DNA of 64,000 nt, from positions 372,001-436,000 of the forward strand of contig NZ_CP102282.1 in NCBI RefSeq assembly GCF_025150745.1, written 5' to 3'. A program made the translations under genes and the position numbers. This DNA is from Eubacterium ventriosum (lineage in GTDB: Bacteria; Bacillota; Clostridia; Lachnospirales; Lachnospiraceae). The notes beneath the pieces were generated by a model. The model made no database searches. It worked only from the letters and a program-made list of their open reading frames with translations, and had not been told where the DNA came from. Below, in pieces: positions 4,507 through 26,469 of this stretch. Each line of letters begins with the position of its first letter. Within the stretch, counting starts at the first letter, position 1.

Positions 4507-4533
4507 ACAGGGACAGCTATCTGCCATCCCTGT
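4507..4533 (-). terminator. Hairpin at the end of the helicase gene
   Basis: ACAGGGA (4507-4513) pairs with TCCCTGT (4527-4533). On the minus strand the stem is followed by TTTTAG. It overlaps the stop of the giant gene, so it probably weakens read-through into the SpoVG gene. Confidence 0.5.
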
Positions 4534-7500
4534 TACTTTCATTAGGATATTCACTCATATCCTGTGTTTTACTGTCTTTGTTTACGGTATACGTGTTCTT
4601 CGCATTCTCTGATACTTTCAAATTTGTCTGTTCTGACACACATATCTCTTCATCAATGTTCTTTTCCAAATCAAGCATTGCGTTTAATTCTGCCTGCCTC
4701 TTTTGCTTGTCACTTAATTCTTTCTCATAGGCAAAAGGCTTCTCATACTCGCTCTTTGAGGACTCCATGTCTCTCTTATACTGTTCAATCTTCTTTTTGA
4801 GAAATTCTTCTTTTTCATTTAAGTTATTAAACAGGTTGTCAAGCTTTATCATATTCCCCACAGGGCTTGTTGACATTTCAGCCTTATACTCTGTCTTTCC
4901 ACGAAGTATCATATAATTAATACCCATATAGTTCTTTTCTACTAAAAGGGTGAAACCTCTAAAACTTCCAATCTCATAAGTATCTCCGCTTTTGCTCTTG
5001 CTTACTGCTTCAAGCAATGCAGTACCGCCTTCGCTTCGCTCATCATATGTAATCTTACCTATGGTTATGGCAAATCCGTCACCTTTTAAAAGTTCCTTAT
5101 CTCTTGCTTCAATGTCATACTTTACACACTTAAGTTTTTCTTCTACCGCCTTAATCAGTTTCGGATACTTAATCATAAAATTATCCTGAAAAGTATATCT
5201 CTGGCTGTCGTAATTAGACTTTAACAGCTTTAATCTCTGCAATTCATTATCAAGTTCCATCTTTTCCTTTATCAGCGGATTACCTGTTGCAACTGCCTTT
5301 ATCTCTGCATAAGACAATGTTGCCTCATCTATGTCTTCACATGTTCTTGATACTGCCTTGCTTGTCATTACCTGACTTATGAATCTCTGTTTGTTTTCCA
5401 CAAGTGACCAGGAGTATGCATCAAAAGTTTCCTTTGTAACATATCTGTATACTGCAACTTCTTCATTCAAATTGCCCTGTCTTATTCCTCGTCCCTCTCT
5501 CTGTTCAATACTTGACGGTTTCCATGGGCAGTCTATATGATGCATTGCTACAAGATGTGTCTGAACATTTACTCCCGTACCACATTTGTCTGTTGAGCCT
5601 ATAAGTACCTTCTTTTTACCTGTTCTCATTTCCTTAAATAAGATATCTCTTTGTGCATCTGTTTTTGCATCATGGATAAATGCTATTTCATTTTCAGGTA
5701 TTCCTTTTTTTACAAGTTCAGACTTTACGTAATTGTATACATCAAACTCTTTTCCTCCGGGTGTTCCAATATCTGAAAAAACAAGCTGACAGCCTATTTT
5801 TCCTTCACTGTTCGCCCTGTCATATTCGTAGAACACATTTTGTACTACCTTATTAAGTTTTCCGTCAGGATTGTTGGGAGCATCCTTATCAAGAAGTCTT
5901 GCATCCGTTCCAAGCAATCTTGCTTCGTGAGTTATCTTTAAAAAGTTATCAACACTTGAATCTACGCCACCATTTCTAATACGCTCTGCCCTTACCACAA
6001 AATCTTCCATTACCTGTTTGACATACCAATCAGGCTCTGATTCCACAATGATGTACTTTCCATCTCTTAATTTAGGAACATCAAGCTCTAACATATCCTG
6101 TGTCTGTACATCAGCAACCTGTTTAAATATGTTCATAAGCTCCGGCAGATTGGTAAACTTATTAAATCTGCTTTTCATACGAAAACCGCTTCCTTCAACC
6201 GTAAGTTCAAGTGTTGTTGTAATCTCACCGAAGTTTGCTGCCCATGAATCAAAATGATATATTCCCTTTTCTTCCAATGTATCCTTCTGCAGATAGCTTT
6301 GCATTACATACATTTCACACATTGTATTGCTTATAGGTGTTCCCGTGGCAAATACAATTCCTCTTCCCGGATTTATCTCATTTATATACTGACATTTAAG
6401 CTGCATGTCTGTTGCTTTCTTTGCTCCCGAACTGCTTATGCCTGATACATTATTTATCTTTGAAAATATGGCAAGGTTTTTGTAATTATGTGCTTCATCC
6501 ACCATAAGGCAATCAATGCCTAATTCTTCAAATGTTATCAGGTCATCTTTTCTCTGCTCATCTGTAAGAGTCTTTAACTGCTCTTTTAGTCTTTTTTTCT
6601 GGGCTTCCATTTGTTTTACAGTCCATCTTTCGCCGTTCTTTTCTTTTGTCTCATCTATGGCATAAGAAATCTGTTCTATTTGCTCATTTAACATTCTTTC
6701 CTTTCTCTCTTTTGAGATTGGAATTTTTTCAAACTGGGAATGGGACATAATAATGCAGTCATAGTCTCCTGTGGCTATCCTTGATATAAACTGCTGTCTC
6801 CTGCTTTTTTCAAAATCACGTTCTGTTGCAACCAGTATGTTTGCAGACGGATACAAACGTAGAAATTCAGATGCTGTCTGATTTATTAATGCTTTAGGAA
6901 CAATCATTGCTGTTTTGTTTGCAAGACCTAATCTTTTCTGTTCCATACACGCTGCCATCATTTCAAATGATTTTCCTGCTCCAACACAATGGGCAAGCAA
7001 TGTATTTCCTCCAAACAATATTCTTGCTACTGCATTTTTCTGATGAGTTCTTAATTCAATCTCAGGATTCATTCCCGGAAAAGTCAGGCTTGAACCGTCA
7101 TATTCGCGAAGTCTTGTATTATTAAATGTCTGATTATAATAATCCACATATTTCTTTCTTCTTTCCGGTTCTGCAAATATCCATTCCTTAAATTTCTCCT
7201 TAATCAGATTTTGTTTCTCCCTTGCAAGCATTGTTTCATTTTTATTTACAACATAATGATATTTACCGTCACCGTCATCCACCCTGTCTTTTACAGTTAC
7301 GGTCTTCAAATTAAGACTTGCTTCGAAAATAGAATAAGCATCCATGCGGCTTGTTCCATATGTTTTGGAAGCTGCCACAGAATGCTTATCCATTGATTTA
7401 TTTTCTATAAACCATTCCATACTGTATTTATTCAGATGAACCATTATTCCTGATGAATAATAAGCACTTCTTATTGCTTTTGCACGTCTCGGTGTTCCTA

Positions 7501-10500
7501 GAAGTTCATAAACAAATTTCTCATAATCCTGTTCTTCAATCCATGTTGTACCTATCCTTACATCTATTTCAGATGCATCCAAATCTTTAGGCTGAACCTT
7601 TTTAAGTTCTTCTGCATTTATTCTAAATATTTCAGGAGTTTCTTCAGCATACTTTTCTGCCAATGTAAGCTTACTTCTTACGTTTCCTGACAAATATTCG
7701 TCTGCCGTCTCCCACCCCTCATCCATATTGTTTTCATTATATCTTGAGGGATTTAAAAAGATTAGTCCTCTTAGTTCTTCTATTAGTTTTTGTCTCTCTG
7801 CATCATCTGACCTATTCTCATCTGAAAAATTGTTATTTTTATCTTCGTCATATCCATTTATGTCAGGTGTATATATACTAAGCATAAACGGAATGTTTAC
7901 CTCTCCAAATTCACTGATTGAAATATTAAGGGCTTCCACTGCAGTTTCAACTCTGTCTATCGTCACCTCCGGTTTAATTGTCTGTTTATAAAACATGTCA
8001 GCCTTTGTAACCTCACCGTCTTCATCCACGTTTTCAAGAGAACACAGAAGAGGATAGTCAGCATCATCACGAAATGCCCTGTTATTTGCCTTTGATGTAA
8101 TCGCACCGTATTTATTTATGAACTCATCATACTTATCATTTAATATCTCCTGACAGTTTTTTAATTCTTCCTCACTGCATCCTTTAGTCTGTATGTCAAT
8201 AAGATTTCTTGTAAGTTTTCTTATCTCATCAAGTACTTTTATTCTTTCCTCAGCTGTCCTTGGATACTCCTTTAAATACATCTGGGAGTTTTGTCTGAAA
8301 TACAACTTACCGTCTAAAAAAGTATATGTAAAATTTCTGACATCCGGATTTGCCTCAATTATCTCCTCATTTTCTTCCGGTTCTTCAATTTCAAAGTCTG
8401 TTACAGTTGCATCAAGTTTTCCTATTGCACTGCTTAAGCTTTCATAGATATTGAAATTTTCTTTATGATTTACACATATGGTATATCTGCTCTTATCTCC
8501 AAATCTTCCTGTATCATACTCCATTGTCCCAAGCATCATATCAGGGTGCTCCACAAAATATGAATTAACCGGTATGCCATCTTTCGTATATCCAAGATGT
8601 ACCCAGTCTGGTTCAATGTCTATCTGTCGTTCCCTTTTTTTAAAAAACAAAATGTCTGATGTTACTTCCGTTCCTGCATTTTCTTTAAATGCCGTATTGG
8701 GAAGTCTTATTGCACCGATTAATTCTGCCCTCTGTGCAAGGTATCTTCTTACATTGGGGTTTGCTTTGTCCATTGTACCCTTCGTTGTAATAAATGCCGC
8801 TATTCCTCCCGGTCTTATCTGGTCTAACGCCTTTGCCAAAAAATAATCATGTACACGAAAGTTTAACTTATTGTACTTTGGATCATATACTTTATAATCT
8901 CCAAAGGGTACATTACCGACTGCAGCATCAAAAAAGTTATCCGGAAACTTTGTATCTTCAAATCCTGCAATTGTGATGCTTGCGTTCTGATATAACTGTT
9001 TTGCTATTCTTCCTGTAACATCGTCCATTTCCACACCGTAAAGTTTACAGTTTTGCATTGCATCAGGCATACTGCCGAAAAAGTTTCCAATGCCCATAGA
9101 CGGTTCAAGAATGTTTCCCTTTGTTACTCCAAAGTTTGCAAGTGCCTGATTAATGCACATGGCAATGTCAGGAGAAGTGTAAAAAGCATTATTAACACTT
9201 GCTCTTGCATTTTCATATTCTGCCGGGGTAAGAAGTTCTTTTAATTCTTTATACTCCCTTCTCCATAAATCATTCTTTTCGTCAAACACTTCCGGGATTC
9301 CACCCCATCCTGCATACTGTGAAAGTATTTTCTGCTCATCATCTGTTGCATTTCTTTCTTCTTTTTCAATCTGCTTTAATGTTTTTATTGCTTCAACATT
9401 CCACTGATACCTTGTTTTAGAACCTCCTGTTTCAATTCTCCACAGATTGTAATGAAAGTCTTTCTTTTCAATGTCTCGTTCCATGTCAGATATAGGCTTT
9501 TTACCCATTTCAAACACTTCATCCGGAATGTCATACTCACCGATTATTTCTTCCTCAACAGTATTCCAGCTTACATATCCTTCTTTTTCTCCTTCAGCAT
9601 CTCTCCACTGGAATCTCATTCCCTGAGGCTTAAAAGTATCATATCCGTGTAAACCATAGCCATCAATTGGCCAGCCTGCACCTCCAAGACCAAATTCCTT
9701 TTTTATAAGTTTTGCCCTTTCTGATGGGCTGTCCACTGTCTGATAAATTTTATATACTCTTTCCTTTCCTCCCACAAATCCGGTTCCTCTTAAGAGAACT
9801 GAAACAATGTAATCATGAGGAACTACACGTTCTTTTTTCGGTTCCATATAGGTATATTTTTTTCTTTGATTTGGCAAAGGCTTTTTACTGTCTGCAACTG
9901 TTATTTCTTTAGTATTATCATCAAATAAAAAGGAAGCCTGCTCAAAGCCTGCTTCCCTTGATACTCCAAATGAATTAATTTCATCCAGCTCTTTATTTAA
10001 TTCTTCATTTATCTGTCCGTCAGAATTTTCAGATTCATTTTCTAGTGAAATCTGTACACTATCTGATTTAGAACCACTTCCTCTGCCATCATCTTTGCCT
10101 GATTCCTTAGTTTCCACATTTCCATTGTTGAAGTAGGATTCTGAGGTTTGTGTTTCTTTAAGTAATCCGTCATCAGTGTGTCCATCAGGCTGTTTGCCTC
10201 CGTGTCCACTTCCTTCATCTTCTCTGCCAGTCTTCCCAGACGATACAGTGTGTTGTATCTGTTCCTCTCGTTTTCCTTCAGATACTCTGCTGCCATCATT
10301 CCGTACTTTCCTATCTGTGTCATGCTTATTTCCTGCTCCTGTGGCAATTCCAGATTCGGATACAGCATTCCGTCTGCTCCCTCGTGATAAGTTATTCTCT
10401 TTTCTTTCATTTGTGACGCTCCTTTCTTTTTCTATTCGTCTTACTCTGTAATTAAACTCTTTAAGAACACTACAGGATACGTCACATACAAGGGAACCAA

Positions 10501-11176
10501 AGCGGTAAATATCATCTTCATCAGATATATTTATTATAAAACTCATGTCCTGTTCTTCAGCGGACATGTCAAATCCACATCTTGTACCTACTGCATATAA
10601 AACGCTTTCATATAACATTTCTTCAACAGTAAGCCCTTGCGTTTCATTATCTCCACCATTAATCACACCACCTGTAATCCGGTTAAGTTCAGAAATCCCT
10701 GCTTCGGATTTCTCTTTCATTATAGATCGTATGTTCTCCTTTGTATAGTTCTTTAAGAGATTCTCTAAATTTTTTCTGTCATCATTTAAATAAGGCTCAA
10801 TCTTTCCCTCTTCTGTCAGTTCGTCCACCAGACTTTTTAGATTATCACCATTCAAATCCCATGTTAGTTTTACGTTCTTTCCTCCTGTATCAGATACATC
10901 AAAAATATATCGCATATGTGGTTTTAAAATCTTTGATGGAAATATTGCAATTCCCCTGCTTCCTCTTTTTACATATCTGCCTACCTTTTTCCATGAATCA
11001 TAATCTCCTACCAGAGTTGCATTTGGTCGCTGTGCATACACCATAAGTATGTTGTCAAACTCATATCTGTAAATTCTTCCTGTTATTCTTAAAAAGTTTT
11101 TCCAGTTGTCTGCACTGGATACAATGTCATGAATATACTCGTCATACAGTCTTTGTACTTTATAATCAGCACTCAT
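4517..11176 (-). CDS. ArdC-like / N6-adenine methylase / SNF2-type helicase giant protein
   Basis: A 2,219-residue multidomain protein typical of Tn1549-like ICEs. The start chosen is ATG 11176, six bases after GGGGTGA; the TTG at 11182 is less likely. The N-terminal ~150 residues resemble the ArdC single-strand DNA-binding antirestriction domain. A disordered, charged linker (about 250-430) follows. Near residue 690 is a methylase motif I (EPSMGIGNF), with NVPFG, an NPPF variant, near 756. The C-terminal half is a superfamily 2 helicase: HCVGAGKS near 1397, VDEAHNYKN near 1559, [10 protein letters not shown], and GRGIRQGN near 1895. It likely methylates and remodels element DNA to protect it after transfer. 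It overlaps the MT-A70 gene by 11 bp. Part of the linker is read in another frame as a separate gene (10042-10410). Confidence 0.9.
10042..10410 (-). CDS. TnpV-like protein nested in another frame of the giant gene
   Basis: This 122-residue ORF lies on the same strand as, and wholly inside, the methylase/helicase gene but in a different frame. Its composition is that of a real folded protein. It opens with [20 protein letters not shown] and has central [19 protein letters not shown] and C-terminal [16 protein letters not shown], a layout that resembles the TnpV family of transposon proteins (110-125 residues). ATG 10410 has a clear ribosome site (AAGGAG, 8-base spacing), unlike a chance ORF. 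In the host frame the same bases encode a low-complexity Gly/Ser/Asp/Lys/Glu linker, as expected if that linker is the frame-shifted shadow of this gene. Function of TnpV is unknown. Family assignment is from memory of the pattern; expression is inferred. Confidence 0.7.
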
Positions 11177-11744
11177 TTTCAATCACCCCTTTCAAGGCAT
11201 CTCTTATATCCTTTCCGTCAATTTCATCACCAAGATAGTCCCATCCGTCAGCTGTCTCTCTGGCAAACAGTTCAATGCGTGGCACATCCCCGCAAAGCTC
11301 TACTATACGTTTTCTTATTTCATCAGGCTTTTTGCTATGTGTCATTACTCTTGCATCACATATCTGACTTACAGCTTTTGAAACACGTTTAGGATGTCCT
11401 TTGGTTCCGATTAGACACACTTCTGAATTAGACCTTGTCCAAAATCCTAGCCCCATAAAATAAGTATCTTTTTTCTTATTTCTCTTTACCCAGTTAAAGC
11501 CACAGGTTTTATATGTAAATCCCCAGCTCTCCATTACGGAAATTCCCTCTTTAAGACATGGAAACGTAATCCATAAAAATAAAACACAGTCATCATCTGC
11601 AATATTAGCCACCGGAAGTGAACGTATGTCATCAATATTCATTGTATGATAATGATTTTCTGCACTTCTTCCCTGACCTTTTTTTGAATACACACGATAC
11701 TGCCAAGGAGGATCAGCATAAATCACTTTATATTTTTTACCCAT
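11166..11744 (-). CDS. MT-A70 family adenine-N6 methyltransferase
   Basis: The 192-residue protein carries the DPPW catalytic motif at residues 11-14 (YADPPWQY) and the MT-A70 signature [13 protein letters not shown]. Further on are [10 protein letters not shown] and the RIELFARE end. These define a SAM-dependent enzyme that methylates N6 of adenine in DNA or RNA. ATG 11744 is preferred over GTG 11753 because AGAAGGTG lies six bases upstream. It is coupled to the giant gene (11-bp overlap) and starts one base from the end of the upstream small gene, so all three form one operon. Likely role: self-modification of the ICE against host restriction (inferred). Confidence 0.88.
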
Positions 11745-11745
11745 G

Positions 11746-12096
11746 CTACGCACCTTCTTTCGATTCTAAAAGTTTCAAATATACATTGTATTCTTCTGTA
11801 TCAAGATTTACACAAAATTCTTCTTCACCTTTTTTCATATTTCTGTTTATCTTTTTTATCAGTCTTAACATTACAAAATTTTCTTTTGACATTTTCATAC
11901 TTTCCTCAAAGTCAATGTTTGAATCTTCATTAATAATTTTCTGCTGTTTTACTATATGTTCGGAAATCTTACTTCGTAATTTATGAGCCTTATTTAAAGA
12001 TACTTTAATTTGATTGCTGTCTCCTTTGCTTTTATTCCATTCCTTATGAAGTTCGCTTATCAAAAACTCCATGTTTTTAATATATGTTTCTCTCAT
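11746..12096 (-). CDS. Small charged hypothetical protein
   Basis: 116 residues, rich in Lys, Glu and Asn, mostly helical in appearance, with no motif I recognise. ATG 12096 follows AGGAGG at good spacing. It is translated directly before the MT-A70 gene, so it probably belongs to the same operon. No signal peptide or membrane segment is visible. Function unknown; location in the conserved ICE backbone suggests an accessory role in element DNA processing, but this is only contextual. Confidence 0.7.
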   Translation of the reverse strand: MRETYIKNMEFLISELHKEWNKSKGDSNQIKVSLNKAHKLRSKISEHIVKQQKIINEDSNIDFEESMKMSKENFVMLRLIKKINRNMKKGEEEFCVNLDTEEYNVYLKLLESKEGA

Positions 12097-23794: not shown

Positions 23795-26469
23795 ATAGCA
23801 ATAGGTAAGGATTTGATATTATCTCCACCTTTTCCCCTGCTCTACACCGTACGTGAGACTTTCGCCTCATACGGCGTGCCATCATACATTTGCAAATTAT
23901 TTATTGTCTAAACCTTTTGGTAATCATAATTTTGCCTTATATAATTAACTTTTTTCCATTGTTCTTCATTCAACTTAAATTTTCTTAATAAACCTTGGGC
24001 TTCAACCATCTTTCTCGTAAATATTGCCTTGTACACATCTGAATTTATAAAGATTATATTTCCGTGATTATTAGTTCCCCTCTTTTTTAAAGGTTTCTTT
24101 CTAATGCACTTCATATGGCTAACATCTAACTTCTTACCCGTTATGTAACAATTTCCTTGCTGAATGACATATGCTGATAAACTATTGTCATTAAATTCTA
24201 TTGTTTCTGTTGGGTCTCTCATTTTAGCTATGGCTTCAAATTCTCTTTGTGTAATAAGCATTAAATTCTTGTGTATTTTCTCTCGACCTTTTGAAGTATA
24301 ATTACTTATTTCCTGAGAGAAATTCATAGGACTCCTATGGTGAACTCCCGTTAATGGGAGTAAACACATATCTCCTATGGTTACAATTTTTGTTTCTTTC
24401 TGAATACCCATTGTTTGTTTTTGAAAATTAATGTCTGTTTCCTTAAATGGAATTGTTTTGCTAATGTCTCTAAGACGTATTCTTATGGTTGGTAAGAGAG
24501 CGTAATTCACATCCGTTAAATTGTTGTAAATATTTGTTGCTATGCAATAATAATTTTGTATTCCTCTAATGGCTGAATTATAGTTTTTAATTGCCACTGT
24601 TGGGTTGTCTTTTCGAATGTTAATTATTTTGGCTTTTAGATTGCTTTTTGCATTCTTAATTGCCTTGTCACTCATATCAGTCTTTGCTATATAACCATAT
24701 CTGGTCTTCCCCTTTGGAACGACTTTTATTTTAAAACCTAAATATGTTGATGAGTTTTTCTTAAGATTTATGACTTTTGGTTTTTCTTCACTTATGTCCA
24801 ATTTCAATCTTGTTTTTAAGAAATCCACTGTTGCGTGATACCATCTCTGTGCTTCGTTATAACTTCCACACATTATTTTGAAATCATCTGCATATCTTAT
24901 TAGAAATCCATCTTTCAGATTGGTGTATTTCTTCGCATATGTTCGAAATGCTTCAACATTAGACATTCTGTTTGGTTTGAATGTTTCCCATTGATTACTT
25001 ATCCACCAATCTAATTCATTTAAGACTATTAGGGATAGTAGTGGACTTATTATTCCACCTTGTGGTGTACCTTTTGTCGGTATTCCTTCTCCCTTTATTT
25101 CTGACTTAAGTATCTTACTTATGATACTTATTAAACGCTTGTCTCTTATTCCAAGTGTCCATATCTGTTTCAAAAGTTTTCCGTGGTCGACATTGTCGAA
25201 AAACCCTTTTATGTCAACATCAACACAGTAGTAATGCTTGTACATATTTATCATACTAACTGTTCTACTAATTGCGTGATGTGTGTCTCTGTTTGGTCTA
25301 AAACCATATGAATGGTTGTGAAACTTAGGTTCACAGATTGGTTCAAGGACCTGCAATATGCACTGCTGAACCAATCTGTCCCATATACACGGAATACCCA
25401 ATGGTCTTTTCTTGTCACTTCCTGGTTTTGGAATGTACACTCTTCTGACAGACTTAGGTTTGTAGTCAGCTAACATCTCTCTCACTGTATTAATCACAGT
25501 TTCATCTGTTAGTTCTTTAATATCGTCTATTGTCTTTCCATCAGTTCCCTTGGTATTACTACCTTTATTACTCTTTAGGTTTCTATATGCTAACCTGATA
25601 TTTTCTTCTGAACCAATAATCTCCAGTAACTTATAAAAGTTGTTACCGTTTTTACTTGCTGAATACAATGAATCATATACTCTTTGCATATCATAATATT
25701 CGTTGTATCTCAATTTGGTTTTCTTTAGCATGGTCTGTAACCTCCTATCTGGGAGTGATTACATCTCTTAGTCTTACTCGAACCCATACCATTCGACTTT
25801 AATTTGCTTAACTGTATGACTAGAGGTCTTCCCTCCACCGCTTATTATCACGGTTTCTTCGGTACTATACCTCCGCTTTCACTGACATAATCTCACTTAT
25901 ATCACTATTGTGATTTTCCCGTTTGATACGTTTCGTAGAAAGTAGATTCTCCACGCTGTCAGCTTCCAACGTTCCAAACACACTATCTTTACATCTATCC
26001 TTAGGTTCCTTCTATGAGCCTGTTACCTTGACACTGCCTGTAACAATGTATGGACTTTCATAAAGGCGGAGTCTTACTCGCCCACAGTAACGACACTATT
26101 TGTGTCACTATGCATTTCTACATAGTCCCGATATAGACCCGTACATTCGAAGTTTCGTCAGAAGAGCTTAACTCTCTTCATTCTCACCATAGATAGTTTA
26201 TAGACCCCCGGCATATAGGATACACATCTCACCTCTGAAATGCTTTCGACATCTAATCTGTTTCGGTATCTCTCTGCCGACTTCACCGAGCTTCTTACAC
26301 TTTAGTTTCTACTAACTTAGGTGCAAGTCGGAGGATTAGGGTTGCCTTTCAGGACGTTACTCCATCATTCGACATATCGTGTGTTTAGTTCTCCGATTTA
26401 CTACTATTTTTTTTATTCAATTATTAGTTACAATCGTGCCATAGCTTTTCACTATGGAACGTTTCGCAC
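23795..26469 (-). mobile_element. Complete group II intron inserted in virD4
   Basis: The intron RNA starts GTGCGAAAC (26469 downward) and ends TTGCTAT (at 23795). Domain V is at about 23841-23878: ACGCCGTATGAGGCGAAAG with its complementary arm CTCACGTACGGT. Domain VI with a bulged-A style stem lies at 23800-23840. The 3' half of the 5' exon (AAAGGCG, 26470-26476) pairs perfectly with CGCCTTT in domain I (complement of 26062-26068), a convincing IBS1-EBS1 match. Bases 25732-26469 hold the non-coding domains I-III. The intron carries its own reverse transcriptase in domain IV. With intact ends, domain V and enzyme, it looks able to splice and retrohome. Confidence 0.93.
23908..25731 (-). CDS. 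ltrA: Group II intron reverse transcriptase/maturase
   Basis: 607 residues. Reverse transcriptase blocks are all visible: RRVYIPKPGSDKKRPLGIP, SYGFRPNRDTHHAI, VDVDIKGFFDNVDH, TPQGGIISPLLS and the catalytic FLIRYADDFKIM. The maturase (X) domain follows (IRGIQNYYCIATNIYNN). The C-terminus has an HNH-like endonuclease stretch (CYITGKKLDVSHMKCI, then RGTNNHGNIIFIN). It binds the intron RNA, helps splicing, and copies the intron into new sites. Encoded inside domain IV, read by the virD4 transcript. No frameshift or missing catalytic residue seen. Confidence 0.95.
   Translation of the reverse strand: MLKKTKLRYNEYYDMQRVYDSLYSASKNGNNFYKLLEIIGSEENIRLAYRNLKSNKGSNTKGTDGKTIDDIKELTDETVINTVREMLADYKPKSVRRVYIPKPGSDKKRPLGIPCIWDRLVQQCILQVLEPICEPKFHNHSYGFRPNRDTHHAISRTVSMINMYKHYYCVDVDIKGFFDNVDHGKLLKQIWTLGIRDKRLISIISKILKSEIKGEGIPTKGTPQGGIISPLLSLIVLNELDWWISNQWETFKPNRMSNVEAFRTYAKKYTNLKDGFLIRYADDFKIMCGSYNEAQRWYHATVDFLKTRLKLDISEEKPKVINLKKNSSTYLGFKIKVVPKGKTRYGYIAKTDMSDKAIKNAKSNLKAKIINIRKDNPTVAIKNYNSAIRGIQNYYCIATNIYNNLTDVNYALLPTIRIRLRDISKTIPFKETDINFQKQTMGIQKETKIVTIGDMCLLPLTGVHHRSPMNFSQEISNYTSKGREKIHKNLMLITQREFEAIAKMRDPTETIEFNDNSLSAYVIQQGNCYITGKKLDVSHMKCIRKKPLKKRGTNNHGNIIFINSDVYKAIFTRKMVEAQGLLRKFKLNEEQWKKVNYIRQNYDYQKV

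Follow-up and report, generated by a model that had tools for sequence, protein, structure and literature searches.

Does the gene of a giant methylase-helicase hold a second gene, read from the same strand in another frame, and if so, how did two proteins come to be written in one stretch of DNA? The question is raised by a 64,000-nucleotide stretch of the Eubacterium ventriosum genome (the window), in which an original prediction, made from the sequence alone, placed an open reading frame (ORF) of 122 codons out of frame within such a giant gene. We examined the two reading frames, their distribution among relatives of the giant gene, and the history of the overlap.

A TnpV gene inside a giant methylase-helicase gene

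The giant ORF (Table 1) is a helicase by its Pfam matches, since Helicase_C, DEAD and ResIII all score over their cut-offs, with SNF2-rel_dom falling just below its own (23.6 bits; cut-off 24.9). Its methylase region is similar in tblastn to annotated N-6 methylases, and includes an Eco57I match at residues 742-822 that stays below the cut-off (18.7 against 25.3 bits), as does an ArdC-N match at the N terminus (18.3 against 22.6 bits). The giant had been described as a backbone gene of an integrative and conjugative element (ICE), and indeed VirB4-like, VirD4-like and relaxase genes are present in the same element, so that the window contains part of a conjugative element. Among its transfer genes there is also an ORF for a reverse transcriptase (RVT_1; 23908-25731, minus strand), perhaps of a group II intron. 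Between positions 9000 and 12500 no RNA element matched Rfam at the gathering score.

Table 1. Features of the giant gene and of the ORF inside it (positions in the window)
Feature	Position	Strand	Remarks
Giant methylase/SNF2-type helicase ORF, 2221 aa, outer frame	4517..11182	-	Helicase domains over cut-off
Helicase region of giant, about residues 1375-1942	5357..7060	-	Pfam matches
Methylase region of giant, about residues 587-1000	8183..9424	-	Weak Eco57I match; alignment; tblastn
tnpV, 122 aa	10042..10410	-	ATG start; +1 frame inside helicase gene
Linker in outer frame, roughly helicase codons 258-380, written in the DNA of tnpV	10042..10411	-	
Ribosome-binding site AAGGAG	10419..10424	-	8 nt upstream of tnpV ATG
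MT-A70 methylase gene just upstream of giant	11166..11753	-	17-nt overlap with helicase start

The inner ORF and its ribosome site were found where they had been predicted, with an offset of +1 relative to the helicase frame and covering helicase codons 258-380. Its product, thought to resemble TnpV, was compared with protein profiles and matched the Pfam TnpV family (PF14198) with an E-value of 1.3e-25 and 90 bits, against a gathering cut-off of 27, residues 12-118 aligning to positions 5-111 of the 111-position model. It also matched PHROG 24764 (E 1.5e-16). The E. ventriosum genome holds five more TnpV matches (L004, L005, L006, L007 and L009), three of them full and free-standing and two partial.

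The length of the ORF alone is only about 1% unusual in the window gene. When the helicase codons were redrawn synonymously 2000 times with the gene's own usage, the tnpV stretch stayed open in 20 draws, and a +1 open stretch of at least 129 codons appeared anywhere in the helicase gene in 24. What places tnpV far beyond chance is its profile match together with its conservation across loci.

Start signals and selection in the two frames

The inner ORF has translation start signals of its own. Taking as inner start the ATG nearest to the profile start, picked blind to the ribosome site, a Shine-Dalgarno motif of at least five nucleotides precedes it in 70 of 79 loci (not counting the duplicate L008 and the truncated L049), against about 4% of control ATGs (362/8231 in the +1 frame, 32/804 in +2 and 185/4513 in frame).

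Among 18 close relatives (153 pairs), differences per site at TnpV codon positions 1, 2 and 3 are 0.42, 0.29 and 0.56, the pattern of a coding frame under purifying selection, in pairs aligned by the TnpV protein, which favours the TnpV frame. Position 2 of TnpV is the third position of the helicase, so the site at which the helicase should tolerate most change is the most constrained. Between the window and its 17 relatives, identity in the helicase frame is about that of the unused frame. A comparison of conservation in both frames had been proposed as a check, and it places the amino-acid conservation in the TnpV frame and not in the linker. The host frame, described beforehand as a low-complexity linker, is hydrophilic there and poor in order-promoting residues, with 12% W, C, F, I, Y, V, L and M against 36% in TnpV (103 overlapping copies).

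After setting aside seven partial matches out of 149, we sorted the 142 full-length TnpV copies by the state of the outer frame. It is open for at least 300 codons in 104 and interrupted by 1-23 stops in 38, with no copy between; these counts include near copies and one duplicate (L008, the window's own gene), and correspond to 96 and 37 distinct proteins. The third frame carries stops in all 104 overlapping copies, 12.9 on average. A helicase-frame stop within tnpV is possible only at a TnpV codon that ends in T before AA, AG or GA. Any NNT codon can become NNC without an amino-acid change, which lets the long frame stay open at no expense to TnpV; by the genetic code, the other frame, for example at ATG before A, could not be held open without altering TnpV.

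In the 38 free-standing copies, T occupies 21.5% of 1278 such risky third positions, these copies using T more in general (27.7%). In the 104 overlapping copies T occurs at 0 of 3650 risky sites and at 14.3% of other third positions. The absence of T from the risky sites follows from how the copies were classed; the evidence in the counts is the clean two-way split together with the 14.3% of T elsewhere. Over the overlap the outer frame too shows selection, in that it is open, with amino acids conserved no better than those of the unused frame. Both frames look selected, and the linker is apparently a passive read-through.

Distribution of the overlap among helicase loci

Loci were fetched by their helicase and not by TnpV. 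The 80 best-matching relatives out of 579 in genomes, and the 80 best out of 185 in viral contigs, were searched with two home-made profiles (TnpV; phage ORFs) at E <= 1e-3. Some of these loci had gone into building the profiles, which makes the census a count of family members and no test of the profiles. A TnpV or TnpV-like ORF lies inside the helicase gene in 136 of 160 loci (the window and the closest relatives of the two scans), in every case in frame +1 and in none in frame +2.

The genome set (81 loci with the window; best 80 of 579) contributes 70 of these, all +1. Two more have a match outside the helicase ORF: in L012 the long frame is broken between tnpV and methylase, and in L085 it is cut by the start of the contig. 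The remainder are two loci without a match that are cut by a contig end, two without a match (L041 and L072), where an ArdC-N-like match is located outside the helicase ORF, and five without the upstream region. In the viral set (79 of 80 placed, L155 being left out because it has no methylase match; best 80 of 185) the ORF is inside the helicase in 66, all +1. Here the remainder are L094, whose best match is a second copy, another lying inside, nine loci without a match, and three without the upstream region. The case named in advance as fatal to the idea, an intact helicase frame with stops in the TnpV frame, did not occur among those loci of the two sets (80 of 579 and 80 of 185, best matches first) that hold the N terminus. 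TnpV also stands in the same relative frame, and in the same part of the helicase, on plasmids of Virgibacillus, Enterococcus faecalis and Cohnella, with helicase frames of 2086-2161 codons. On the Cohnella plasmid (L003, 5995-6333) a TnpV gene is annotated with no helicase over it; the long frame is open there, and the annotation table omits pseudogenes.

All nine unmatched viral loci (L119, L146 and L163-L169), left uncounted, have a +1 ORF near the methylase, with a W..P..L pattern visible by eye in eight (not L119), and several also hold long +2 ORFs. Five ORFs of the L163-L169 group form a profile of their own, with an HHalign probability of 29.5% to the others. One viral giant, L163, has seemingly two tandem TnpV-like +1 ORFs (8729-9824).

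The overlap is not universal, since the Streptococcus helicase L208 has the upstream part and no +1 ORF longer than 47 codons. There was no significant match in P1 and D6 darB, pTi (L207), Leptolyngbya (L211), Parabacteroides (L209), Rhodococcus equi pVAPA (L206) or the Streptococcus helicase, and a lenient scan of homologues without a match gave a best score of 0.069, on another gene. Directly ahead of the methylase, Campylobacter jejuni pTet (L203, 5492-5968) and an IncU plasmid (L205, 5651-5956) each show a +1 ORF with AAGGAG, TnpV-like by eye only.

Phage giants

Starting from 12 viral seed ORFs, which had all been picked by the TnpV profile, three rounds with the phage profile brought in 65 ORFs from the viral set, at a comparable site before the methylase and in frame +1. 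In HHalign, 53 distinct phage ORFs (ICE-type loci removed) matched TnpV with a probability of 96.0% over 54 columns, and 28 ORFs from the same loci matched a 103-row TnpV alignment with 95.9%, again over 54 columns; as the seeds were chosen for their likeness to TnpV, this support is not fully independent. Of seven viral ORFs given to the Pfam TnpV model, L103 (32.9 bits) and L128 (28.6) pass, L096, L105, L113 and L124 score 15-21 bits, and L154 has no match; one of three plasmid ORFs passes, that of L204 (Listeria).

Phages PEp14 (L200, E 3e-37) and Atu_ph08 (L201, E 6e-47) have the layout, as does, weakly, BcepIL02 (L198:5654-5974, E 1e-5). In PBC5 (L199, 1-5440) the giant is in two pieces, the upstream protein entering the TnpV frame and terminating there. 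Phage TnpV-like ORFs (cf. L199 and L131) align with the final 100 positions of PHROG 938, an 'endolysin' profile of 2185 positions. The codon-position pattern of TnpV is weaker in the phage ORFs (0.34/0.31/0.45), and theirs differs from that of the methylase part of the helicase (0.26/0.19/0.57). T occurs at 0 of 1738 risky sites of the 53 phage ORFs and at 8.4% of their other sites.

The inner product

An alignment-based AlphaFold2 model of TnpV has a mean pLDDT of 88.5 and a pTM of 0.71, and predicts a short hairpin and helices. Searching the PDB with this model gave no fold match at E <= 0.001; a second-look fold search gave a best Z of 6.1, which may reflect only a common arrangement, TnpV being helical. 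In a viral structure library the best match was an uncharacterised protein (TM 0.66, E 0.39); the third, Q8W6J4 part 2 (1093 residues), may from its length be half of the 2185-residue PBC5 protein. By sequence, searches of the PDB returned weak matches for TnpV; those for the phage ORFs were mostly designed helical proteins.

That the +1 ORF merely reflects the codon usage of the helicase and is not a gene, as the roughly 1% of synonymous redraws that keep the stretch open might suggest for the window alone, is extremely improbable in view of the Pfam match, the TnpV-frame substitution pattern, the ribosome sites, the single frame of all 136 in-helicase matches and the confident predicted fold; a chance ORF was rejected on TnpV-frame conservation, outer-frame stop avoidance, the redraws and the ribosome-site counts. 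An internal start within a long mRNA could also serve to control the translation or dosage of the giant, its product being of little matter. This we consider very unlikely, because the amino-acid conservation and the confident fold suggest a working protein, and tnpV also persists as a free gene, the flanks examined showing no helicase remnant.

It is very probable, judging by sequence, that the helicase gene really contains tnpV as a second gene, and that the overlap is old within ICEs and plasmids. Through tnpV, the helicase frame is kept open by synonymous choice. Ribosomes coming from the helicase start would read through tnpV in frame 0 and produce a flexible, hydrophilic linker, and other ribosomes would start at the inner site on the same mRNA and produce TnpV.

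Capture or escape

The original prediction also proposed that the linker arose from a captured gene. Half of this stands, in that the linker is the out-of-frame reading of tnpV; a recent capture does not, as the overlap is found in most relatives examined, tnpV covaries with the helicase, and free tnpV nests among overlapping copies.

The TnpV trees rest on 114 columns. In a quick tree of 149 rows there are 8 changes between the overlapping and the free state, and the viral rows are all on one side of a branch. A more careful tree has 73 rows (40 overlapping and 24 free copies drawn at random, the added free row L231, and 8 viral rows). The free copies require 7 changes in it (6-7 in the 5-95% range of bootstrap trees, with at least 5 imposed by the starred branches) and form a single group in 0 of 200 bootstrap trees; the viral rows are not on one side of any branch, 1 of 8 being misplaced. 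Rooting on the viral rows, which are overlapping, leaves the free copies nested, which makes escape the likelier direction, within the limits set by few columns and long branches. Across 76 loci, TnpV distances correlate with those of the methylase (r 0.787) and of the N-terminal part (r 0.785) nearly as well as these two correlate together (r 0.805; Mantel, 0 of 2000 permutations as high).

Beside free copies no helicase remnant was found at E <= 1e-4 in flanks of usually <=1.5 kb a side, except in L231, where a cut helicase N terminus stands immediately before the free tnpV and which is possibly an escape intermediate. L084, L094 and L098 each have a free copy and an intact overlapping one.

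A free-standing tnpV captured by a helicase gene and then read out of frame would explain that tnpV spells the linker and that conservation sits in the TnpV frame, and TnpV is known as a separate gene on mobile elements. We nevertheless find such a capture quite unlikely, a recent one in particular, given the nesting of free copies under the viral-row root, a TnpV-helicase distance correlation nearly equal to that between two helicase parts, and the same layout in phage giants. A very old capture or fusion may have predated the spread of the giants. Our preferred reading, escape, was inferred from the same sequences: the overlap would be old and common to the giants of ICEs and plasmids, probably also to those of phages, and free-standing tnpV genes on other elements would mostly be escapees.

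Possible roles of TnpV

From homology with lambda Xis, a role in excision has been postulated for the TnpV of Tn4451 (PMC3158075). It is therefore conceivable that TnpV is an excisionase-like factor that stands only by chance in the helicase gene. This is unlikely, its conserved neighbour being the methylase-helicase, in phages and plasmids as well. In Tn4451 itself, tnpV stands beside a TnpX-type recombinase.

Since the methylase-helicase is the constant neighbour of TnpV, and since helper proteins of phage P1 are listed as aiding the placement of DarB, our guess, a tentative one drawn by analogy, is that TnpV binds, loads or escorts the giant protein. With similar reserve we can imagine a broader picture, in which most DarB-like giants of ICEs, plasmids and phages, where they have the part upstream of the methylase, would yield a TnpV-family protein as a hidden second product of great age. 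The giant would have arisen, or be held together, by read-through of the small gene in the only frame that is free of cost to it; the tnpV genes of mobilizable elements would have escaped and may act on the giant of whichever element carries them; and TnpV would be a loading or escort factor.

Relation to known systems

The TnpV family of Tn4451 and Clostridium difficile elements (PMC3158075) resembles the protein studied here in sequence family, in its length of about 110-120 aa and in its occurrence on mobile elements. The TnpV of Tn4451 is described as a gene of its own, whereas the one studied here is contained entirely in another gene. Among the TnpV copies sampled, overlapping ones predominate (104/142), in a sample biased to helicase loci. 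In Streptococcus suis, cargo bearing TnpV is inserted in an snf2 gene (PMC9815147). That this snf2 cargo carries TnpV, and that the Streptococcus helicase L208 is without an inner tnpV, is a noteworthy coincidence.

The giant itself apparently has the methylase and helicase plan of the DarB-like polyvalent dyads, and occurs in the same types of element. These dyads join an adenine methylase to a SWI2/SNF2 ATPase in conjugative elements, plasmids and phages, with ArdC-N as a common N-terminal domain (PMC5512222); the words 'tnpv', 'linker' and 'overlapping' are absent from the main text of that paper. The DarB of P1 is described as a component of the virion head that protects phage DNA (PMC5512222), a giant virion-borne methylase-helicase with small helper proteins, of which Ulx and DdrB are tabulated as aiding its localization or addition to the capsid (PMC9024508). 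Ulx and DdrB are separate genes, and darB, in which no TnpV-like match was found, begins roughly with its methylase part. Ulx matched neither the TnpV nor the phage profile, and was dropped as a candidate relative of TnpV.

Few long overlapping genes in prokaryotes are fully established (according to PMC9927249). The present overlap, kept in many lineages and with sequence signs of selection in both frames, is a strong natural case for testing how proteins share DNA. TnpV gains from it a constant partner to test, and the overlap suggests a route by which a separate gene becomes a linker inside a fused protein. It also means that tnpV is often missed by annotation in plasmids, ICEs and phages. 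Among open-access papers we recognised, by title or abstract, no report of an overlap between tnpV and a helicase gene. Overlapping genes and the TnpV family are already known; an old and widely kept overlap with a passive linker and repeated escapes is undescribed in the open-access literature surveyed.

A further parallel is with the overprinted genes of viruses, which likewise yield two products from one stretch in two frames, and in which disorder in one product has been proposed to relax constraint (PMC8227390). There, overprinting places a novel protein inside an older gene; in the methylase-helicase giants it is the inner gene that is conserved, and the outer linker that looks passive.
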